Positions 1 to 9,027 of a stretch of 64,000 bases of DNA are shown here, one piece after another (the first letter of the stretch is position 1; each line of letters begins with the position of its first letter). Origin of the DNA: Gammaproteobacteria bacterium (GTDB taxonomy: Bacteria > Pseudomonadota > Gammaproteobacteria > GRL18); assembly GCA_015488755.1 (NCBI GenBank), contig WFNB01000109.1:1-64000 (forward strand), read 5' to 3'. The notes beneath the pieces were generated by a model. It ran no database searches, was not told the origin of the DNA, and worked only from the letters and a program-made list of their open reading frames with translations. Made by a program: the position numbers and the translations under genes.

Positions 1-363
1 CATCTTATTAATGAAGCTCGCAGAAGAAAAGAAGTGACCACTCGCAATGTCGTTAAAGCGGTGGATATTGCTTGGGATGCCTATGAGTCATCTAGCAAAC
101 GTATGGATTTTTTACAAAAGTATGTTGACTCCACCGTTAAAACACGCAATGCGTATGAGCAACAGTTTCGTATTGGTGAGCGTACCTTACTTGATTTACT
201 GAATACTGAAAATGAAATATTTTCAGCCCACTCAGAAAATATTAAAAATTACTATGAACACATTCTTGCCGAATATCGTGTGTTGGATTCTATGGGGGCT
301 TTATTACATGAGTTACAGCTTTCTGTGATTGATAAAAAAAATGAGCCGTACACAGAGCAATAA
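1..363 (+). CDS. TolC-family outer membrane efflux/type I secretion protein, C-terminal part
   Basis: The frame is open from the first base, so only about the last 120 residues are in the window. They match the end of TolC-type outer-membrane channels of type I secretion: a long amphipathic helix followed by the hallmark Tyr-Glu-Gln-Gln-Phe, Gly-Glu-Arg-Thr-Leu-Leu-Asp-Leu-Leu-Asn stretch (codons around 157-210) and a final coiled helix. Such proteins form trimeric tunnels that connect an inner-membrane ABC exporter and adaptor to the outside. The export partners would lie to the left. The gene ends with TAA and is followed by a short palindrome and a LuxR-type gene. Family is clear; the exported substrate is unknown. 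A LapG-type protease at 42.5 kb makes a LapA-like adhesin one possibility. Confidence 0.85.
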   Translation, partial: HLINEARRRKEVTTRNVVKAVDIAWDAYESSSKRMDFLQKYVDSTVKTRNAYEQQFRIGERTLLDLLNTENEIFSAHSENIKNYYEHILAEYRVLDSMGALLHELQLSVIDKKNEPYTEQ

Positions 364-388
364 TACGCTTCTTTGACTCTATTATAAT

Positions 389-401
389 GAGCATTATGCT
401 C
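389..401. promoter_or_regulatory. Small palindrome before the LuxR-type gene
   Basis: GAGCAT and ATGCTC flank a single T, giving a perfect 13-base palindrome between the TolC-type gene and the LuxR-type gene. It could be a weak terminator or an operator; there is no long T run after it. Confidence 0.3.
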
Positions 402-429
402 TTAGCTCAAAATAGGTGGGATCTTTATT

Positions 430-1059
430 ATGAATATTATTGTTTTCTCAAAAAATAAAGAAATAATAAAGCATCTTAATGAAGCGCTTTCTCTGAGTGA
501 TTATACTGTACAGAGCTTTACTTCAGAGGAGTTGCTAAGCACTTTTATTGGTAGTGAAACACTTGTTAATTTAATCTACCATCTTGGGCAAGCGGATGAT
601 GAAGAGGTTTTGCAGTCCCTTCAGCTTACTTTCAGAGATAAACTTAATACCTTGGTTTTAAGCAACACGCCTCATCCTGAACAAGGGATCCGTTTGCTGG
701 GTTATAATATTCGAGGTTATGCCAATACGTTTCTAGAGCATGATAAATTAATAACCGCATTGAGTGTTATACAACAAGGTGAAATATGGGCTGGTGCTTC
801 CTTGATCCAACACATGCTACATACTGTTACTCAAAAAAATCAACGCATAACTAAGCCTTCAGAAAAAAATCAAGATGATTTTTTTGCTCAGCTTACTGCA
901 CGGGAACAGGAAATTGCTAAAAAAGTTCATTTAGGTAAACAGAATAAAATTATTGCAGATGAACTGTCCATAACAGAACGAACCGTTAAAGCTCACCTCA
1001 GCACTATTTATAAAAAATTGAATATTAAAAATCGTTTAGAATTAAGTTTAAAATTTTAG
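430..1059 (+). CDS. LuxR/NarL-type transcription regulator with an atypical receiver-like N-terminus
   Basis: A 209-residue protein. The C-terminal ~60 residues hold a LuxR-type helix-turn-helix: Leu-Thr-Ala-Arg-Glu-Gln-Glu-Ile near residue 155, then Asn-Lys-Ile-Ile-Ala-Asp-Glu-Leu, and the recognition helix Thr-Glu-Arg-Thr-Val-Lys-Ala-His-Leu-Ser. The N-terminal ~125 residues have the size and strand pattern of a response-regulator receiver but lack the acidic pocket and an obvious phospho-acceptor Asp, so it is probably not a conventional phosphorylated regulator. A purine-rich GGTGGGA precedes ATG. It follows the secretion channel gene on the same strand and may regulate that locus. Target genes are unknown. 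Confidence 0.8.
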   Translation: MNIIVFSKNKEIIKHLNEALSLSDYTVQSFTSEELLSTFIGSETLVNLIYHLGQADDEEVLQSLQLTFRDKLNTLVLSNTPHPEQGIRLLGYNIRGYANTFLEHDKLITALSVIQQGEIWAGASLIQHMLHTVTQKNQRITKPSEKNQDDFFAQLTAREQEIAKKVHLGKQNKIIADELSITERTVKAHLSTIYKKLNIKNRLELSLKF

Positions 1060-1078
1060 ATATTGTTATGGTGGTTTA

Positions 1079-1471
1079 TCATTTTCTGTTTTTATGTGGG
1101 TCATGGCTATGGTAACGTACCATATGGCATATAGAAATACCTTCCTCTAGTTTTTTAAAACCAAGTTGTTGATAAAATCGTACCAGACGGTTTAATCGTT
1201 CAGGATTTGTCCGTCCCCCTAATGGTCTTGCTATAACGTAGATGTCTTTATTGTAAATACTTGCTAATTGGATAAAGTGTTGTAATAGGTGAGTCCCAAT
1301 TCCTTTGTTTCTACACGATGCAGGGATGATAATCTTATCTATTTTTAATCCCTTATCTATTTCTGTAAACTTAAGTTCCACTGTCTCATCATTGATAGAC
1401 CATGCTAATTCACCGCTCATCGAGCCAAGGTGACATAAGGTTTGCCCCTGATGACCGGTATTACGGGGCAT
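1079..1471 (-). CDS. GNAT-family N-acetyltransferase-like protein
   Basis: A 130-residue protein with the acetyl-CoA binding motif A of GCN5-related acetyltransferases: strand Lys-Ile-Ile-Ile-Pro followed by Cys-Arg-Asn-Lys-Gly-Ile-Gly-Thr-His-Leu-Leu (about residues 47-62). A later Phe-Tyr-Gln-Gln-Leu-Gly-Phe motif is also typical. It is short for the family, but the core is complete. The chosen start overlaps the end of the upstream ABC-like gene by 11 bases, suggesting translational coupling; a later ATG at 1417 has no better ribosome site. It is the last gene of the leftward cassette that starts with the roadblock protein. The substrate cannot be told. Confidence 0.75.
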   Translation of the reverse strand: MPRNTGHQGQTLCHLGSMSGELAWSINDETVELKFTEIDKGLKIDKIIIPASCRNKGIGTHLLQHFIQLASIYNKDIYVIARPLGGRTNPERLNRLVRFYQQLGFKKLEEGISICHMVRYHSHDPHKNRK

Positions 1472-2144
1472 TACTGATCCGACCTGCTTGCATTATGAAT
1501 TGTTTATCAGCAACCTTTTTAGCAAATTCACTATCGGTGCAAGTAAAAAAAACACTTTTTTGTTTTCGCTTTAATTCGATAATTAATTTTTCAATTTCTG
1601 GATAGGATTCCTTGCTAATGCCCTTGAGAGGATCTTCCCATACTAACAACTCAAATGGCTCTAGCATTGCTAAGCCAAGTGATAACATTTTTTTCTTAAT
1701 GGGTGATAGTTCGCTGATTTTTGTTTCCATGGGAAGGTCGACCCCAGCACTTGCTAATGCTGTAAAGCTTTTTTTTAAAAATTGGCTGTCCAAGCGCCAT
1801 TGTGCATAAAGTTCATTGATCGTACTGCTAGCGTTACGTGCTACGGCTAATACATGATCGGCAATGGTAAGATGATTAAACAAATAATCTTCTAGGGCAA
1901 CACAGCTGAGTCCTTGTTTTTTGCGTTGGTAAGGATTTAAGGGAACAATATTGACACCATTAAAAAATAGATGTCCTTCGTCGGGTATAAGATGCCCTGA
2001 AATTAAGCCAATAAGTGTTGTTTTAGCAATGGTATTACTCTGGCTGATAAGGGCAACAATACTATTGTCTTCAATGCTGAGAGTAGCAGAATCTACGGCG
2101 ACTTCTTGACCAAAGCTGCGTTTAAGATTTTTAATTTCCAACAT
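1461..2144 (-). CDS. Degenerate ABC-transporter ATPase (pseudo-ATPase, LptB/LivF-like)
   Basis: 227 residues with the overall order of an ABC nucleotide-binding domain, resembling LptB/LivG-type subunits (the Gly-Leu-Ser-Cys-Val-Ala-Leu-Glu-Asp-Tyr-Leu-Phe stretch sits at the Q-loop). Every catalytic motif is altered. In the Walker A loop the three glycines are replaced by Gln35, Thr38 and Ala40, with Lys41-Thr42 kept. The signature reads Leu-Ser-Pro-Ile-Lys instead of Leu-Ser-Gly-Gly-Gln. The Walker B end reads Trp-Glu-Asp-Pro instead of Leu-Asp-Glu-Pro, and the switch His is replaced (Thr-Cys-Thr-Asp). The frame is intact, so this looks like a maintained non-hydrolysing domain rather than a decayed gene. 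No permease gene is adjacent. It lies between the zinc-finger gene and the GNAT gene. Confidence 0.8.
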   Translation of the reverse strand: MLEIKNLKRSFGQEVAVDSATLSIEDNSIVALISQSNTIAKTTLIGLISGHLIPDEGHLFFNGVNIVPLNPYQRKKQGLSCVALEDYLFNHLTIADHVLAVARNASSTINELYAQWRLDSQFLKKSFTALASAGVDLPMETKISELSPIKKKMLSLGLAMLEPFELLVWEDPLKGISKESYPEIEKLIIELKRKQKSVFFTCTDSEFAKKVADKQFIMQAGRISNAP

Positions 2145-2175
2145 AATGCTGTCCTTTATTGTTTAATGCTACTGT

Positions 2176-2934
2176 TTAGGATGCTGCTGGTGCTTGGAGA
2201 TTATTAAAATACTGTTTAAGCTTCATAAGTAGTATTTTTTCTAAGAAATCTTCATCAAGCAGTAATAAAATGGTGTAATGATAGGCTGAAAGTTCAGGGA
2301 TCCAAATCAGTTTTTTTCGTTTCCCTTGAAATGAAAACTCCATTCTAAATAGGGTATCCTTATTGTCCTGACTAAAATCACCAAGTATTTTCATGCTATT
2401 GTTAAGTGTCTTACTAAAAAACAAATGTAATGATTGCATATCTAGGTGAGTAAAATCATTAATGGATGAACCGATAATTTTATCATTACTGCCATCAATA
2501 AGTGCAATTCCTTGACAGCCATGACAATTGTGAAACTTGCTTAATAAGTGTTTAAGAGTTGGATTTTCTATGACCTTGTCCATGTCCTTATTTTGTCTGG
2601 CCAACTCAGTTGGAACTGGAGGTTCTTTGTGGGGAATGTTGGCGCTAAGATGAGGTTGTTCTTGGATAAAAACTTCAATAAACTTGATGGCATTGCTACT
2701 TGATAAATGTTCTGTTTTTTCTATAAAGTGGTAAATATCACCTTCTTGTTGACAGGCATAGCAATGCCAATGTTGTTTGCTTGGATAGACCAGAAAACTT
2801 TCTTCTTCATCATAACAAAGAGGGCAATATCCAGTTAATAAGGCACCATTTTTTTCTAAAGGCACATGAATATTGATAATACTCAGAAACTCTTCTGTGC
2901 TTAATGGTTTTTGTTGAACTTTTGTATCGAGCAT
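2176..2934 (-). CDS. DnaG-type (CHC2-like) zinc-finger protein with a possible roadblock-like C-terminal domain
   Basis: 252 residues. Residues 37-61 form a zinc ribbon like that of DnaG primase: Cys37-Pro-Leu-Cys40, a Ser-Phe-Leu-Val strand, then His-Cys58-Tyr-Ala-Cys61 and Gly-Asp. The second ligand is Cys, where DnaG has His. No primase catalytic (TOPRIM) domain follows. After a linker, a Cys-His-Gly-Cys pair leads into a region with the strand/helix pattern of roadblock/LC7 domains (Gly-Ile-Ala-Leu-Ile-Asp-Gly, then Tyr-Thr-Ile-Leu-Leu-Leu-Leu near the end); this second assignment is my inference. The gene is 18 bases downstream of a clear roadblock gene, and the same fold in both would allow a heterodimer. 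Function unknown. Confidence 0.65.
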   Translation of the reverse strand: MLDTKVQQKPLSTEEFLSIINIHVPLEKNGALLTGYCPLCYDEEESFLVYPSKQHWHCYACQQEGDIYHFIEKTEHLSSSNAIKFIEVFIQEQPHLSANIPHKEPPVPTELARQNKDMDKVIENPTLKHLLSKFHNCHGCQGIALIDGSNDKIIGSSINDFTHLDMQSLHLFFSKTLNNSMKILGDFSQDNKDTLFRMEFSFQGKRKKLIWIPELSAYHYTILLLLDEDFLEKILLMKLKQYFNNLQAPAAS

Positions 2935-2952
2935 ATTAACCGTACTAATTTT

Positions 2953-3321
2953 TTAAGAAAGTTCAGTAACAAATTTGGGCATGAGTTTCTTCATGGTCAT
3001 TTTAGCTAATGCTTGATTACCATCTTTCTCAAGCACAGAAATTAGGTGTAAGTGAGGTTCGCTATCAACACCAGAACATAGAATGATAATAATACCGTTA
3101 GGAGTGTTTAAAATCATTTCTGTTGTGGCTTCTAAACCCACTTTTTCAGAGGCTTCGTGAGCACCTCTAAATATGTCATTAAAGGTCGCCGATGCTAGCT
3201 CAAGATCGGTACTCTCATCAGCGCTATCAGAAATTAGTAATTCACCTGTAAAATCCATTAATCCTGAACTTTTATAACCTTTAATACCTCGTAATTCACT
3301 TAGAATGGTTTCGATACTCAT
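2953..3321 (-). CDS. Roadblock/LC7 domain protein
   Basis: A 122-residue single-domain protein with the roadblock/LC7 pattern: an N-terminal helix (Glu-Thr-Ile-Leu-Ser-Glu-Leu), Gly-Leu-Met-Asp-Phe-Thr-Gly-Glu-Leu-Leu, a long central helix, and hydrophobic strands Gly-Ile-Ile-Ile-Ile-Leu-Cys and Leu-His-Leu-Ile-Ser-Val-Leu. Bacterial roadblock proteins often bind small GTPases of the MglA type, but none is encoded nearby. It is the first gene of a leftward cluster with the zinc-finger protein (18-base gap), the degenerate ABC ATPase (31-base gap) and the GNAT. Its own promoter should lie in 3322-3520. The family call is secure; the partner is not known. Confidence 0.8.
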   Translation of the reverse strand: MSIETILSELRGIKGYKSSGLMDFTGELLISDSADESTDLELASATFNDIFRGAHEASEKVGLEATTEMILNTPNGIIIILCSGVDSEPHLHLISVLEKDGNQALAKMTMKKLMPKFVTELS

Positions 3322-3522
3322 TACTACTAGCCCTCTTAATTCAAATATAATTTTTAATAATTATTGTTTTCAAGTTTGATTATTACTAATTCACTTATTA
3401 TTTACAAGTGAATAGAACCACTTTTATTATTCACTGTGTATATTAATATATATCAAAATATTAAATTAGTATAGTTTTTGCGTAACTGATCTTATGGAAT
3501 AAAATTTCTACTTAGTTTTTAT
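3322..3522. other. AT-rich intergenic region before the roadblock cassette
   Basis: About 200 bases without a gene, very AT-rich, between the start of the leftward roadblock gene and a MITE-like element. It must hold the promoter of the leftward cassette, but I see no motif strong enough to place it. The last 8 bases (3515-3522, GTTTTTAT) are the left copy of the target duplication of the next element. Confidence 0.4.
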
Positions 3523-3695
3523 GTAACTGTTCAGCAAGACTGACCGTATCCAGCCTACAAGTCTGCATTTCAGGGGATGCGCAAGTACATCCATGTAACG
3601 CTTTAATGAAAACATCCATGTTTTCATAACCCCCTGAAACACCGACTTGCACGCTGGACACTCTGTTCGAGGCATATAATACGCTGAGTAGTTAC
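3523..3695. repeat. MITE-like palindromic repeat, family B, copy 1 (173 bp)
   Basis: Ends are imperfect inverted repeats (GTAACTGTTCAGC at 3523-3535; the complement of GTAACTACTCAGC at 3683-3695; 11 of 13 match). GTTTTTAT occurs directly on both sides (3515-3522 and 3696-3703), an 8-bp target duplication. Inside are nested hairpins, including ATGAAAACAT and ATGTTTTCAT around CC, and a near-palindrome around TACATCCATGTA. A second copy of the same length lies at 35248-35420, with roughly nine bases in ten identical. The right flank runs straight into the end of the metalloprotease gene. Confidence 0.85.
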
Positions 3696-3699
3696 GTTT

Positions 3700-4467
3700 T
3701 TATTCTATTAAACGAATTTCTTTGGCAGTTTGTTCGCCAATAAGAGCTTTATCAAGAGAAGAAGGTATCTCAAAGGTATTTTTATTTATTGGAATTCGTC
3801 CCCCCATAATTTCAGCATAAGTTTGAGGATAAAGGGGAGAGAGATCGGGTTCTGCAAAACCAAAAGGATAAATAGGCTCGTTAGTTGCTAAATTGTATTT
3901 ATCTGTTGCTCCTAAGGTATGTAATAACTCATGGGTCATGATAAAGAGGTTGCTGCCTCTTTGTCTTTTATCGGCAAATAAATTAATGATTGCCATGTGT
4001 CCTTTTTTTAGACCAGTAGAATGTTTTATTTCAGGAGATTTTTTAGGATCATAATAAAGGGCAAATAATTGTATTTCTGGTTTAGGCCCTTGGTATTCAT
4101 CACGAGTAAATGCCCAATAGCGCAATTTCAAACTCCATAGCATAATATCAAAAGCATTGCCCTGTACGGGGATTTTAGGTGGTAACTCGTTAACAATTGC
4201 TGATAGGTCAATATCAATAGGTTCACTTAAAGAGACATTATAATGTTCTAATTCCTCGCTTAGAAAGTCATTAATGGCAGAAAAATTATCTTTAGTAAGA
4301 GTCTCAATGTAAGCAGCACTAATGGGGGAGTGATCGCCATTAATAGGATAAACAACCACTCGTAAGGTATGAGACCAGCCTGTTATTCGCCTATCGCTCA
4401 CTAAGGTACCAACTGAAATAATGAGCAAAATAAGTAGCAAAATAAAAATTCGCAAGTTTTTATGCAT
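3700..4467 (-). CDS. Membrane-anchored zinc metalloprotease-like protein
   Basis: 255 residues. Residues 5-22 form an N-terminal membrane segment, so the rest is probably periplasmic. The zinc site is His179-Glu180-Leu-Leu-His183 followed by Thr-Leu-Gly186-Ala-Thr-Asp189, a metzincin-like HExxHxxGxxD/H arrangement with Asp as the possible third ligand. A Met-Gly-Gly after residue 215 could be the Met-turn. No other recognised domain. The stop codon lies within the 8-bp duplication of the neighbouring MITE, so the insertion fell a few bases beyond the gene end without changing the product. Neighbours give no functional hint. The peptidase fold is likely; the substrate is unknown. Confidence 0.65.
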   Translation of the reverse strand: MHKNLRIFILLLILLIISVGTLVSDRRITGWSHTLRVVVYPINGDHSPISAAYIETLTKDNFSAINDFLSEELEHYNVSLSEPIDIDLSAIVNELPPKIPVQGNAFDIMLWSLKLRYWAFTRDEYQGPKPEIQLFALYYDPKKSPEIKHSTGLKKGHMAIINLFADKRQRGSNLFIMTHELLHTLGATDKYNLATNEPIYPFGFAEPDLSPLYPQTYAEIMGGRIPINKNTFEIPSSLDKALIGEQTAKEIRLIE

Positions 4468-4506
4468 TGTGTATGACCTATCTTATTCTTTTTATTAAGA
4501 TTTTTT

Positions 4507-4658
4507 CATAGGTAGGTAATTAAGAACTTTTGGGCTAGGATAACTCTGTGTTTACTACAGAAGACGCCGTAAATCCATCCTTGGAGGCTTTATTGCCACA
4601 TCCATGTGGCAAAAACTTCTTCCGTAAACACAGAGTTATCCTTAAGTACCTACCTATG
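4507..4658. repeat. MITE-like palindromic repeat, family A, copy 1 (152 bp)
   Basis: Terminal inverted repeats begin CATAGGTAGGTA and end in its complement at 4641-4658 (one mismatch over 18). A second inner pair, AGGATAACTCTGTGTTTAC and its complement, is perfect over 19 bases. The core contains the hairpin GCCACATCCATGTGGC. The 10-base direct repeat AAGATTTTTT flanks it exactly (4497-4506 and 4659-4668), a perfect target-site duplication. A nearly identical copy is at 60551-60701 (about four differences). No ORF inside. Its right end supplies the TAG stop codon of the symporter gene. Confidence 0.92.
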
Positions 4659-5868
4659 AAGATTTTTTACTTAAAATATCAACTGCTTTTGTTACGACCA
4701 TATCCGAGGTGACATTAACCGAGGTACGTGCCATATCTAAAATTCGATCGACAGCAACAATGATGGCCAAATACTCTACGGACAGACCAATTTCATTGAG
4801 AATAACGACCATCATGACTAACGATGCGCTAGGCAGTGCTGCGACACCAACACTCAGCGCTACTACGGTAATACCAAGCAGTAGCTGATCGCCAAAGCTA
4901 AGCACTACACCAGATAAATTAGCAATATACATAACGGCAATGGTTAGGTAAGCGGCAGTACCATCCATAGAAACAGTGGCTCCCAGTGGTAAGACAAAAG
5001 CGGCACTTTCTTTGCTAACGCCCCCTTTTTCCTGAGCAACTTTCATGCTCACTGGCAAGGTAGCAGCACTTGAGGCAGTTGAAAAAGCCATTAAGGGAAC
5101 TTCTCTAATGGCATTTAAATAGGTGTAAGGATTTATTTTAGTGGCTAAGGATAAAACAATGGGGAGGGTGATTGTACCATGAATAATGAGGACAGCTAAG
5201 ACAAGTAATATGTATTTCCATAAACCGATAATGACATCAATGCCTTGCTCTGCAACCACATAGCTAATTAAGCTGAATACGCCAATCGGTGTTAATTTAA
5301 TAACCCATTCAGCGATTTTTAACATGGCATTGGTCAGTGCGGTAGAAAAATTAAGTAATAATTGATGTTCTTTTTTATCTAGAAATAAGGTCGCAATGCC
5401 TAAAAGGATACCAAAAATAATTACCTTCATTAAGTCACCACTGGCTAGAGCCCTAAAAATATTGGTTGGAATAAAACTTAACAACATAGCTTGTGCAGAA
5501 AACTCGGCAACTTCGGATGCCTTTTTGTATTCCAGCCCTTGTGATGAGATGACTTCACCAATATTAAAGACATTCATGGCAATAATGGCCAGTAAAACAG
5601 AAAGAGCAGTGGTCAGCACGTAGAGGAAAATCGTTTTTAAACCAATATTTTTGAGTTGTTCAAGCGTGCCTAAGCCGGACACAGCAGAAAATATAGATGC
5701 GAACACCAGAGGGACGACTAACATTTTTAATAGGCTGACAAAGGCTGTACCAAGCATTTTTTGCTGTAAGGCAATTTCTGGTAGGATAATGCCGAAGGCA
5801 ATACCGGATACGATGCCGAATATGACCAGAGTATTTAAACTTGAGTGCTGTTTAATAAATTGAAACAT
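4654..5868 (-). CDS. Dicarboxylate/amino acid:cation symporter (DAACS family)
   Basis: 404 residues with the GltP/DctA-type layout: about eight membrane segments, the Ser-rich re-entrant loop (Ala-Phe-Ser-Thr-Ala-Ser-Ser-Ala-Ala-Thr-Leu-Pro near residue 265), and the transport-core motif Leu-Pro-Leu-Gly-Ala-Thr-Val-Ser-Met-Asp-Gly-Thr-Ala near residue 300. It imports glutamate, aspartate or C4-dicarboxylates with Na+ or H+; which one cannot be decided. The last Ser and the TAG stop come from the family A MITE. Without the insertion the frame would end one codon earlier at TAA in the flanking DNA, so the product is essentially unchanged. Two bases separate it from the upstream C_GCAxxG_C_C gene; they are likely co-transcribed. 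Confidence 0.9.
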   Translation of the reverse strand: MFQFIKQHSSLNTLVIFGIVSGIAFGIILPEIALQQKMLGTAFVSLLKMLVVPLVFASIFSAVSGLGTLEQLKNIGLKTIFLYVLTTALSVLLAIIAMNVFNIGEVISSQGLEYKKASEVAEFSAQAMLLSFIPTNIFRALASGDLMKVIIFGILLGIATLFLDKKEHQLLLNFSTALTNAMLKIAEWVIKLTPIGVFSLISYVVAEQGIDVIIGLWKYILLVLAVLIIHGTITLPIVLSLATKINPYTYLNAIREVPLMAFSTASSAATLPVSMKVAQEKGGVSKESAAFVLPLGATVSMDGTAAYLTIAVMYIANLSGVVLSFGDQLLLGITVVALSVGVAALPSASLVMMVVILNEIGLSVEYLAIIVAVDRILDMARTSVNVTSDMVVTKAVDILSKKSS

Positions 5869-5870
5869 GA

Positions 5871-6332
5871 CTAATCCTTATCTATTTGATTCTGGGAAAT
5901 AATTTCTTCCAGTATTTCAACGGCATCGTTAACAAAGTTTGGGCACCGTGATTGGGTTAAGCCTTGTTCTTTTGCGTATAAAAAGCCCTCTGTTGTACTG
6001 ATATCACAGGCTAAGAGATCACGACATTGGCAAGAGCCATTTTTTTGCTCGAATTTCTTACTCAGCTCTTGAATTTTCTCATAGGTCTGATCTTTCTTAA
6101 TTTTTTCTGCTGAACTGGCAGAGCCATATTCGAGCCCGAGAACAAGATAGGCTCCAGTTAAGGCTCCACAGGTTCCCCCCATACGTCCCATGCCACCACC
6201 AAAGCCAGTTGCCAGTCGACAAGCAGTAGCAGGATCTAGGTCATAATGTGGGGCGTATTGGTTAATAATTGCTTGGGAGCAGTTTAGTCCACCGATAAAG
6301 GTTGCTTTGGCTTGTTTGGCTTCAGATGACAT
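5871..6332 (-). CDS. C_GCAxxG_C_C family protein (putative redox or metal protein)
   Basis: 153 residues. The family is named for its spaced cysteines and all are here: Asn-Cys-Ser-Gln-Ala-Ile near residue 17, Ala-Cys-Arg-Leu-Ala-Thr-Gly-Phe-Gly-Gly-Gly-Met-Gly, Thr-Cys-Gly-Ala-Leu-Thr-Gly-Ala, then Cys-Gln-Cys-Arg-Asp-Leu-Leu and a final Arg-Cys-Pro. The family is cytoplasmic, often next to transport or redox genes, and its biochemical role is poorly defined. It is first in a two-gene leftward unit with the symporter. The 6333-6507 gap is a divergent promoter region shared with the helicase gene. Confidence 0.85.
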   Translation of the reverse strand: MSSEAKQAKATFIGGLNCSQAIINQYAPHYDLDPATACRLATGFGGGMGRMGGTCGALTGAYLVLGLEYGSASSAEKIKKDQTYEKIQELSKKFEQKNGSCQCRDLLACDISTTEGFLYAKEQGLTQSRCPNFVNDAVEILEEIISQNQIDKD

Positions 6333-6507
6333 GGTTCCTCTCAGTTTTACCGACTTACTTAGATTAAAATTGGAAATAATTTTCCCGTTTGTGAATGATA
6401 CTGAATTTAACCATTTATGATAGTCCTAAAATGAATTTTTATAGTAATTATGACCTATATCCTGTAAGCTACACGCCCCTCCAGACAATCAAATTAAGAG
6501 AATTTCT

Positions 6508-7935
6508 ATGAGTTTTTCATCACTTGGCCTATCTGCCCCTATTATGGACGCTATTGTGGCACAAGGATATGATACACCATCACCTATTCAGGCTCAGGCA
6601 ATTCCTGCTGTGCTTGAAGGTAAAGATGTTATGGCTGCAGCCCAAACAGGTACCGGAAAAACAGCTGGTTTTACCTTACCTATATTAGAAATTTTATCCC
6701 GAGGCTCTAAGGTAAAGGCCAATCAGGCTAGGGCATTGATTTTAACTCCTACACGAGAATTAGCTGCTCAAGTAGAAGCAAGTGTAGTGAACTATGGTAA
6801 ACAGTTACCTTTGCGTTCAACAGTTGTTTTTGGTGGTGTAAAAATTAATCCACAAATGATGAAGTTGCGCAGAGGGGTCGATATTTTGGTAGCGACACCG
6901 GGACGCTTACTTGATCTTTACAATCAAAATGCGGTGCGTTTTGATCAGCTTGAAATATTGGTCTTAGATGAAGCGGATCGAATGCTGGATATGGGCTTTA
7001 TTCATGATATCCGAAAAATCATTTCTTATTTACCTAAAAAACGTCAAAACTTGATGTTTTCAGCAACCTTTTCGGATGATATTCGCAATCTGGCCAAAGG
7101 CATGGTGCATCAACCGGTTGAAATTTCAGTTAGTCCTAGAAATACTACTGTAGAATCTGTAAAACAGTGGATTTGTCCGGTCGATAAAAAACAAAAGTCA
7201 GCCCTGCTAATGCATTTGATCAGTCAAAATCGCTGGGAGCAGGTATTGGTTTTCTCAAAAACTAAGCATGGGGCAAATCGGCTGACAAAATACCTAGAAG
7301 GTTATGGTATTCGCTCTGCTGCCATTCATGGTAATAAGAGTCAGGGCGCCAGAACAAAGGCTCTGGAAAATTTTAAACGGGGTGCGGTTAAAGTCTTAGT
7401 AGCAACTGATATTGCGGCTCGTGGTCTGGATATTGAGCAGCTGCCTCATGTGGTCAACTTTGATTTACCAAACGTACCAGAAGATTATGTACACCGTATT
7501 GGTCGTACTGGAAGAGCGGGCGCAACAGGTGAAGCAGTATCATTAGTCAGTGCCGATGAATTTAAACTGCTTAGTGATATAGAACAACTGATTCAGCAAG
7601 TCTTAACTCGTGAATACATCGAAGGATTTGATCCGGTACATGATTTGCCTGTATCAAACTTACGTCAACGCCCAAGTAAACACAAGAAAGCAAAAAGACC
7701 TAAAAAAGTAAAATCTGGTCATAGTGATGGTCAGCGTTCAGGAGAGAATGCTCGTGGTCATAAGCCGTCGGGTAAGAACAAAAGACATGTGGGTGGGCAA
7801 AAACACTCTTCTGCAACAAATTCATCCAGTCAAAAACCAAATGGGCAGAGACGACGCAATAGTAATTCTTCAGGGCAAGCAAATAATGCGACCACAAGTT
7901 CGGTCAATAAGAAAAATTACTACCGTCAGAAGTAA
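6508..7935 (+). CDS. rhlE: DEAD-box ATP-dependent RNA helicase, RhlE-like
   Basis: 475 residues. Motifs in order: Q-motif (Pro-Ile-Gln-Ala-Gln-Ala-Ile-Pro), Walker A Ala-Gln-Thr-Gly-Thr-Gly-Lys-Thr, Pro-Thr-Arg-Glu-Leu, Asp-Glu-Ala-Asp, Ser-Ala-Thr-Phe, and the C-lobe [10 protein letters not shown] and His-Arg-Ile-Gly-Arg-Thr-Gly-Arg. The last ~95 residues are a disordered Lys/Arg/Ser/Asn-rich tail, as in RhlE proteins, probably for RNA binding. It unwinds structured RNA in ribosome assembly or mRNA turnover, often at low temperature. It starts at ATG 6508 after AAGAGAA. RhlE is the closest type by eye, but other DEAD-box paralogues (SrmB, DbpA) differ mostly in the tail. Confidence 0.88.
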
Positions 7936-8060
7936 ATAGCGTCAATATGATACGCAGTAAGCTTTACATTTGAAAGCTAATTAGGATAGTATTAGAAAAC
8001 TCTAAACTTACAAAGCACGAATAACAATATCATTTAAAAATACGTATCAAGGAGATCTTC

Positions 8061-8894
8061 ATGGATAAAGAAACAAGTGACAAGTTAAATGACACTCTAG
8101 GAAAAATGGGTGCTATTGATAATGGTAGCCAAGCCTCATCAGGGAATAGTTCATCACAAACCTCTGATATGAGTTTTTATGTCTTCATGCTTGCTATTAT
8201 TGTCGGTATGGCATTTTACATCTCATATGATATGAAACAACGTTATGGGACAACTTCAAGCACATCAATAACGGCTGAGCCTTCAGCTGCACAAGAGCCT
8301 TCAGTTGCACAAGAGCCAGTGGTTGTCAGTGTTGAAACGGTTAAAACAGTTGCAGTGCAGCCAGTTGCTGACGTCCCAGTAACTGAGACGACACCAGAAG
8401 CTGTGGTAGTGGAAAAAGTTGAACATGCGACCGTGGTGACCACTGCTGTTGTGCCCGTTGTCGAAGCAAAAGAAGCGCTTGTGAAGGATGCACCTAAAGC
8501 TACTCCTGTTAAAGAAGCGGCAGCTGCAACTGATAGTCAAGCACATGCAATGCCTATGATTGAAACAATGGCCAAGTCGGTTGACGTCATTACGGCTCCT
8601 GTTGTTGAAACGGTTGAAGTGATAAAAGAAGCGGTCTCTCCTAAGCAAGCTGTTAAGCAAGAAGCTGTTAAGAAAGAAACGCCTAAACAGGCTCTTAAAC
8701 AAGTACCTGTCGCACGCCAGGCTGCTGCACCTGCATATAATAATTATGCCAACCCTTATCAAGGTTACCAACCACAGTATGGCAATCCATACCAAGGTGG
8801 CTATCAACAGCAGCCTCAACAGCAATACGGTAATCCATACGCGAATCCTTATGCCAACCCTTATGGCTATGGTAATCCTTACCAACAGCAATAA
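8061..8894 (+). CDS. Single-pass membrane protein with Val/Ala/Glu/Pro linker and Tyr/Gln/Pro/Asn-rich tail
   Basis: 277 residues, unrecognised. Layout: a Ser/Gly-rich cytoplasmic start, one membrane helix (about residues 35-52, Phe-Tyr-Val-Phe-Met-Leu-Ala-Ile-Ile-Val-Gly), a long low-complexity linker of Ala, Val, Glu, Pro and Lys, and a tail of repeated Asn-Pro-Tyr and Tyr-Gln-Gly units from about residue 225. The frame has a strong AAGGAG ribosome site before ATG and is followed by a good terminator, so the gene is real despite its composition. The tail resembles sticky or prion-like sequences; this is a description and not a function. Long antisense frames here are artefacts of composition. 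Confidence 0.7.
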   Translation: MDKETSDKLNDTLGKMGAIDNGSQASSGNSSSQTSDMSFYVFMLAIIVGMAFYISYDMKQRYGTTSSTSITAEPSAAQEPSVAQEPVVVSVETVKTVAVQPVADVPVTETTPEAVVVEKVEHATVVTTAVVPVVEAKEALVKDAPKATPVKEAAAATDSQAHAMPMIETMAKSVDVITAPVVETVEVIKEAVSPKQAVKQEAVKKETPKQALKQVPVARQAAAPAYNNYANPYQGYQPQYGNPYQGGYQQQPQQQYGNPYANPYANPYGYGNPYQQQ

Positions 8895-8951
8895 TGTTAG
8901 TTAAATTGGTTATGGTGTGACTAATGGCTGATTGACATACTACGTATGGCC

Positions 8952-8984
8952 AACTGAGCATCTTTAATGGGTGCTCAGTTTTTT
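8952..8984 (+). terminator. Rho-independent terminator
   Basis: A perfect 9-bp stem AACTGAGCA / TGCTCAGTT (8952-8960 and 8972-8980) with an 11-base loop runs into six T. It ends the low-complexity membrane protein gene. Confidence 0.9.
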
Positions 8985-9027
8985 ACTTTTATTTAAGATG
9001 ATGGCTTATTTTCCCTGAGAGCCTTTT

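Follow-up and report, generated by a model that had tools for sequence, protein, structure and literature searches.

What is known of roadblock proteins in bacteria concerns mainly their partnership with MglA-type GTPases. According to PMC4316618, MglA Group 3 of Beta- and Gammaproteobacteria combines a protein that has both receiver- and winged-helix-like regions with MglA and one or two copies of MglB, some MglA proteins of other groups have PATAN neighbours, MglB carries a conserved Asp-Gly pair, and 328 uncoupled MglB homologues were counted; the same article states that, as of 2014, none of the orphan MglB proteins had been characterised. Here we describe a cassette of four genes, read on the minus strand at positions 1079-3321 of a 64,000-nucleotide stretch of gammaproteobacterial DNA (hereafter the window: G000:C109:1-64000, G000 being the genome and C109 the contig), in which a predicted roadblock protein is encoded together with a DnaG-type zinc-ribbon protein, an ABC-like protein with altered motifs and a GNAT acetyltransferase. 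The cassette is real, rare and conserved. In the open-licence literature of PubMed Central (PMC) we found its domain architecture described nowhere, in agreement with an initial annotation of the window that knew of no described system of this composition, and we found no paper there on the combination of a roadblock domain with a CHC2/DnaG zinc ribbon.

The four genes and their predicted products

The cassette consists of four leftward open reading frames (ORFs), all of them open (3321-2953, 2934-2176, 2144-1461 and 1471-1079), which in transcription order are spaced by 18 nucleotides (nt) between P0004 and P0003 and by 31 nt between P0003 and P0002, with an 11-nt overlap of P0002 and P0001. 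The initial annotation had described tightly packed leftward genes with intact frames, and both points were confirmed, the ABC-like frame being open in both species that carry it. The features discussed below are the following (aa, amino acids):

2953..3321, minus strand: P0004, predicted roadblock protein, first gene of the cassette (122 aa; fold model, Foldseek)
2176..2934, minus strand: P0003, zinc ribbon with a putative C-terminal roadblock-like domain (252 aa; Pfam and a weak model)
2677..2895, minus strand: DnaG-type zinc ribbon of P0003, residues 14-86 (Pfam range)
2185..2592, minus strand: putative roadblock-like domain of P0003, about residues 115-250 (fold search, alignment)
1461..2144, minus strand: P0002, putative pseudo-ABC protein, nearest the LivG/UrtD branch (227 aa; Pfam, NCBIfam, tree)
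2016..2045, minus strand: altered Walker A of P0002, SQSNTIAKTT (GKNQSLGTTT in L041), one residue longer than GPNGAGKST (alignment)
1689..1709, minus strand: altered signature, LSPIKKK (LPSLKKK in L041) versus LSGGQ / LSRGD (alignment)
1629..1649, minus strand: altered Walker B, LLVWEDP in both species versus LLLLDEP, with D and E swapped (alignment)
1536..1538, minus strand: position of the switch histidine, occupied by Thr (Asn in L041; alignment)
1079..1471, minus strand: P0001, GNAT acetyltransferase (130 aa; Acetyltransf_7)

The comparisons draw on G010, a genome of the same genus, and on L041 (JAGLFC010000115.1), a contig of a gammaproteobacterial metagenome-assembled genome. Over its first 3,079 bases this contig coincides exactly with locus L003 of G010, so that L041 and G010 are one case and provide no third.

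P0004 is a roadblock protein by its predicted fold. The AlphaFold2 model, built from five sequences, has a predicted local distance difference test score (pLDDT) of 79.7 and shows a helix, two strands, a helix, three strands and a helix in succession; Foldseek matches it to Roadblock3 of an Asgard archaeon (9jue, E 1.4e-8) and to Myxococcus xanthus MglB (6izw, E 7e-8), with TM about 0.8, and to many further MglB and roadblock chains at E below 1e-6. The roadblock assignment of the initial annotation is thus upheld by fold prediction despite a Pfam Robl_LC7 score of 15.5 bits, below the cut-off of 23 (the G010 copy reaches 17.3). P0004 and its L041 orthologue are 83% identical. Comparison with hhalign to three roadblock-like domains encoded on contig C184 of G010 gave E 2e-5, and a model of these three domains, which among solved structures best match a roadblock chain (E 0.058), retrieves P0004 in G000 at E 7.1e-5.

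In P0003 the Zn_ribbon_DnaG domain (PF01807) is recognised at residues 14-86 with 58.0 bits against a cut-off of 24.9 (E 8.8e-16). The likely zinc ligands are C37, C40, C58 and C61, a C4 and not a CHC2 set, and the four cysteines are found in all three proteins compared, i.e. P0003, its L041 orthologue and an analogue from locus L063 of G010. The Pfam and NCBIfam lists, taken to E 1, contain no TOPRIM or RNA polymerase domain for P0003, and the match to the dnaG model ends at residue 86, which bears out the earlier description of a DnaG-type ribbon without primase domain. On weaker evidence, this ribbon appears to be joined to a second roadblock-like domain. Residues 125-246 of the P0003 model follow the roadblock order of elements; 3 of 1,024 Foldseek matches reach E 0.001 or better, the best ones being mostly chains of roadblock proteins, Rag C-terminal domains and profilins, while the DnaG zinc domain 1d0q ranks 41st; and the 50 listed VIA-align entries (Z 8.1-10.4, model residues 113-252) include Rag C-terminal domains, roadblock proteins, MglB, Mon1-Ccz1, profilin-like proteins and others. 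The suggestion that the zinc-ribbon protein has a roadblock fold of its own is therefore favoured by the fold of a low-confidence model and not by profile comparison. The best analogue of P0003 is a 305-aa protein of G010 (L063 11100-12017), with a zinc ribbon followed by a roadblock-like domain that is 50% identical to the adjoining free roadblock-like protein. A motif at the start of the roadblock-like domain of P0003, H135-x-C137-x-x-C140, is common to the L041 orthologue and absent from this analogue. We also found that the linker of the L041 zinc-ribbon protein (560-1582) is made of repeated acidic EPEPEPEIELIP units, which the window orthologue lacks.

P0002 matches Pfam ABC_tran with 36.4 bits (cut-off 25), its best NCBIfam model is UrtD (E 4.5e-21, far below the model's own cut-off), its best solved match is the LivG-type 1gaj (E 1.5e-16), and in a 14-row tree it groups together with its L041 orthologue with UrtD/LivG (support 80/83, stem 2.64). 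We aligned both proteins with 20 ABC proteins selected because their P-loop and Walker B are intact, applying the usual motif names and consensus sequences for ABC proteins (and, below, for GNAT proteins). Walker A, signature, Walker B and switch are all changed, exactly as first annotated, and most of the changes are common to both species; only the window copy has lost the Q-loop Gln, and the C-terminal tail of LivG is missing from P0002. We infer from these motifs that P0002 has lost catalysis; nucleotide binding would still be possible, because the window copy keeps the Walker A lysine, which is gone in L041. The best-conserved parts of the two orthologues are the helical region (36/44 identical), the Walker B region (16/19) and the Q-loop region (22/29), the remainder comprising residues 1-30 (20/30), residues 46-70 (16/25), the P-loop (6/15), the signature (6/13) and the C-terminal part (19/52).

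The ratio of nonsynonymous to synonymous differences (pN/pS) was calculated between G000 and G010/L041, where pS is 0.59-0.78 and near saturation, so that the ratios are rough. It is 0.29 for the ABC-like gene (bootstrap 0.23-0.37), 0.16 for the roadblock gene, 0.35 for the GNAT gene and 0.63 for the zinc-ribbon gene; control MglA-type GTPases, which may not be orthologues, gave 0.51, and a comparison of LivG with LivF (0.71), which are paralogues, was left out of the controls. The ABC-like gene evolves under purifying selection and is less constrained than a working LivG. Random decay of an ABC pseudogene, which the initial annotation had named as fatal to its proposal, is ruled out by the ratio of the ABC-like gene, by the open frame in both species and by the mostly shared motif changes. 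Its view that the loss of catalysis looks selected stands as far as purifying selection and shared changes are concerned; the catalytic loss itself is read from the sequence, with the lysine kept in the window.

P0001 scores 30.2 bits with Acetyltransf_7 (cut-off 27), and the motif for coenzyme A, (R/Q)xxGx(G/A), is intact, reading RNKGIG in P0001 (by eye) and RGQGIG in L041, so the acetyltransferase was rightly named. It is 64% identical to the L041 GNAT, and an internal Met (1420) is possible as alternative start; membership of the GNAT gene in the cassette rests on one relative.

Conservation and distribution

L041 carries, one after the other, roadblock, zinc-ribbon-roadblock, ABC-like, HDAC-like and GNAT genes, i.e. 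the four cassette genes in the order of the window with one insertion, and not the change of neighbours in every relative that would have spoken against a unit; the first three genes, whose co-occurrence had been proposed as a check, are thus kept together, and with the GNAT gene, in one other genome of the same genus. Eleven L041 genes were tested against the window: the four cassette genes match, the other seven, including the HDAC-like gene, do not, and the flanks differ. Because the HDAC-like family is matched in 13 of the 24 genomes of the family and not in G000, we treated the HDAC-like gene as an insertion, a probable passenger and not a member of the system.

Among the same 24 genomes, the roadblock profile finds only G000 and G010, and the GNAT is likewise confined to these two. 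The ABC-like profile has ABC matches in all 24, with E below 1e-100 in G000 and G010 only and the next at 3.6e-21. Searches with P0003 gave matches in 54 of 57 genomes (G000 included), none of which, beyond G000 and G010, is better than E 2.3e-11 or extends past residue 123; we take these other matches for DnaG and other primases. Over 369 genomes of the class, the roadblock profile retrieves the window's protein at a high score and four genomes with weak matches. A contig scan with the roadblock alignment, of a type that needs exact short peptide matches, found one locus, L041; the scan with P0003, under the same requirement, gave no match, nor did viral contig scans with the roadblock and ABC alignments. 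The zinc-ribbon part has no BLAST match in 17 loci with roadblock-like genes of a phylum sample (about 3 kb each), some of which match the roadblock/linker part of the zinc-ribbon proteins, and by eye no zinc-ribbon gene was noticed in six loci from the roadblock search of the class genomes.

P0004 and the C-terminus of P0003 are unmatched in 50,697 phage records and 72,556 plasmid records, and a phage or plasmid origin was rejected on this basis; P0003 itself has 78 phage matches, of which the 20 listed all start no later than residue 19 and stop no later than residue 155. In PADLOC-DB (2023), P0001, P0002 and P0004 are unmatched, P0003 matches DRT models over the zinc ribbon only, the L041 ABC protein has a weak mad3 match, and the cassette does not give the several-component match of a known anti-phage defence system. 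The guanine-plus-cytosine (GC) content of the cassette is ordinary and no outlier, and a scan for promoters and terminators was uninformative, with 14 promoter-like sites where 10.8 would be expected. Upstream of the cassette, the intergenic region 3546-3661 contains a long imperfect inverted repeat (31-nt arms) and the intergenic region 4489-4676 long imperfect inverted repeats (36- and 27-nt arms), both possibly resembling miniature inverted-repeat transposable elements.

Roadblock, GTPase and ABC genes at other loci

Ten of the 24 family genomes, including G000 and G010, have MglA-type GTPases. In G000 the single GTPase match lies on another contig, C19; a very divergent GTPase could be missed. 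The search for a distant MglA-type GTPase, proposed in the initial annotation, was successful in both genomes, and the co-occurrence is uninformative because the GTPase is also present in 8 of the 22 family genomes without the cassette. On C19 (L068 2189-11053), an Urt-type ABC operon, in which a binding protein, permeases, UrtD and UrtE were recognised by eye, lies tail to tail with an MglA-roadblock cluster of MglA-type GTPase, roadblock, PAS and binding-protein-like genes. Two MglA-type GTPase genes of other genomes (G013:C3:204963-206970 and G017:C347:4465-4999) look broken, each in two pieces and one with an internal stop codon.

In a sample of 398 genomes of the phylum, a five-sequence roadblock profile matched 14 genomes including that of the window, with 17 loci in the other 13; at 11 of these loci an MglA-type GTPase is encoded no more than about 1.5 kb away. 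A second locus of G010 (L063 11100-15279, on C184) comprises genes for a 355-aa protein, an unassigned 279-aa protein, PP2C, a free roadblock protein and the zinc-ribbon-roadblock protein. The 355-aa protein begins like a receiver domain (by eye), contains a part resembling DUF4388 (18.2 bits, short of the cut-off of 25) and ends in a roadblock-like domain. The 279-aa protein, guessed by eye to be a kinase, was rejected as such, having no Pfam match and no PDB match better than E 0.5.

In a further cluster of G010 (C108, L081 2921-8586), 18 nt separate an ABC ATPase gene from a roadblock gene confirmed by Pfam (53.9 bits), and an MglA-type GTPase is encoded in the same cluster. Here the ABC ATPase is fused to a PTP-type phosphatase, and the other members are a small roadblock-resembling protein, a globin-reductase and, by eye, a response-regulator-like protein. 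Matches to the small protein occur in 22 of the 369 class genomes; in the 12-kb stretches around the seven strong matches that we examined (L102-L108), an ABC gene stands beside the small gene in all seven (in L103 the ABC part alone aligns), a GTPase is present in five and a relative of the confirmed roadblock protein in three. The ABC gene of such clusters is unmentioned in the passages of PMC4316618 consulted. Four ABC domains from these clusters keep the P-loop and Walker B and have altered signatures. The small gene resembles a roadblock gene by eye, but this identity could not be confirmed: none of eight members has a Robl_LC7 match, hhalign gave E 0.013, and no roadblock chain is among the PDB matches.

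Possible roles and relation to known systems

The reading that we put forward, as a tentative possibility, is that the products form a soluble, roadblock-based scaffold with a regulatory role, MglB/Ragulator-like and of the orphan type, with a non-catalytic ABC adaptor. The roadblock domains of P0004 and P0003 would pair as a heterodimer; P0002, no longer a motor, would serve as a fixed adaptor and bind partners through the Q-loop/helical subdomain that it conserves; the zinc ribbon may be a reader or effector arm for nucleic acid or protein; the GNAT would modify a target of the complex as its output; and a small MglA-type GTPase encoded elsewhere may dock on the roadblock pair as a switch. 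Unlikely is the bolder proposal of a new bacterial signalling complex in which the roadblock heterodimer would carry the primase-type ribbon to nucleic acid, the catalytically dead ABC protein would be the fixed scaffold and acetylation by the GNAT the output. Such a complex would be an analogue of Ragulator-like platforms, GTPase-regulated or GTPase-free, and G010 would have a paralogous form of it linked to PP2C and perhaps to response-regulator signalling.

In favour of the scaffold are the constant gene order in L041 amid other neighbours, the restriction of the roadblock and GNAT genes to G000 and G010 within the family, the predicted roadblock folds (on a weak model for the P0003 C-terminus), the pN/pS ratios, the conserved helical, Q-loop and Walker B regions of the ABC-like protein, the second zinc-ribbon-roadblock gene of G010 with its roadblock and PP2C neighbours, the GTPases near 11 of the 17 phylum loci, the roadblock-ABC-GTPase cluster on C108 and the GTPase genes of both genomes. 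Several observations weigh against it. The cassette is known from two species only, one of them represented by a 64% complete genome; the P0003 model has a pLDDT of 47.1 and its best Foldseek E is only 7.5e-4, and hhalign comparisons of the P0003 C-terminus with roadblock alignments of two or three sequences gave E 0.27 and 0.16. At the place of the Asp-Gly pair of four other roadblock proteins, two of which Pfam confirms, P0004 and its L041 orthologue carry Thr-Gly, and the roadblock-like proteins of G010 C184 lack a Robl_LC7 match. The ABC-like and zinc-ribbon genes evolve faster than an intact LivG control (pN/pS 0.12), and the GTPase is not beside the cassette and recurs in genomes without it. 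Finally, the C108-type (ABC-PTP) ABC was rejected as ancestor of P0002, from which it groups apart in the tree, and the likeness of these clusters to the cassette is therefore not one of shared ABC descent. With the small C108-type gene unconfirmed as a roadblock, the roadblock-ABC parallel is partly lost, which lowered our estimate for the scaffold and raised that for ordinary neighbours.

By the latter explanation, which we regard as somewhat unlikely, unrelated small genes would by chance be co-transcribed, or have been inherited or transferred together, without forming one system. It would agree with the confinement of the cassette to two genomes with differing flanks and with the insertion in L041 of an HDAC-like gene from a family matched in 13 of the 24 family genomes; it sits badly with the constant order of the four genes at near-saturated synonymous divergence when none of seven other L041 genes occurs in the window, and with the second adjacency of roadblock and zinc-ribbon-roadblock genes in G010. 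Quite improbable, in our judgement, is a role of P0002 as regulator or inactive subunit of a Liv/Urt-type transporter, in which it would keep the docking face of LivG, would not hydrolyse ATP and would thereby park the permease, a switch that the roadblock pair would control. The position of P0002 in the tree and its conserved helical subdomain speak for such a role, as do the Urt-type operon adjoining the MglA-roadblock cluster of G000 and a partial Liv-type operon on C68 (by eye), whereas the modest support and long stem of the placement, the missing LivG tail and the failure to recognise by eye any ABC permease among the ORFs of window positions 1-9000 or of L041 speak against it. We give equally little credence to the zinc ribbon as a sensor of single-stranded nucleic acid in a replication- or stress-linked, possibly defensive, module with the GNAT as effector: the families that best match the ribbon are indeed DnaG, phage primases and the DnaG-like parts of the DRT models, but none of these matches extends further than the ribbon or, at most, the linker, and neither the phage and plasmid searches, nor PADLOC-DB for the other three proteins, nor the GC content point that way.

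A zinc ribbon with a putative roadblock-like domain, encoded next to a free roadblock protein, offers a concrete case in which one could test for a roadblock heterodimer in bacteria that carries its own effector arm. An ABC protein of LivG/UrtD type whose altered motifs are kept under selection would be a clear pseudo-ATPase to study, and the roadblock/GTPase/ABC clusters of other Gammaproteobacteria suggest that these proteins may cooperate more widely.

Compared with known systems, P0003 resembles DnaG primase in its zinc ribbon and in the 1d0q fold match, and differs from it in lacking the TOPRIM/polymerase domain, in its C4 ligands and in the roadblock-like domain that appears to be attached. 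P0002 is homologous to LivG/UrtD ABC ATPases (1g6h, TIGR03411) over about 225 residues, unlike which it has all main catalytic motifs altered and the C-terminal tail missing, with no ABC permease recognised nearby. The C108-type clusters (G010 C108, L102-L108) likewise associate an ABC gene with roadblock and GTPase genes, but their ABC proteins stand apart from P0002, keep the P-loop and Walker B in the four domains compared and, in G010, carry a fused phosphatase domain. MglA-MglB modules also have one or two roadblock/LC7 proteins per system, and the loci on C19 of G000 and C108 of G010 resemble Group 3 by eye (GTPase plus Pfam-confirmed roadblock); the cassette, in contrast, has no GTPase and no receiver/winged-helix protein and instead contains the zinc ribbon, the putative pseudo-ABC protein and the GNAT, and P0004 departs from an MglB-type GTPase-activating protein of MglA in being uncoupled from a GTPase gene and in its Thr-Gly. 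The Ragulator, Ego and MP1-p14 scaffolds are eukaryotic and multi-subunit, and the cassette has no shown sequence relation to them; their chains are among the structural matches of both roadblock domains, and the pairing of different roadblock domains is the parallel that we suggest.

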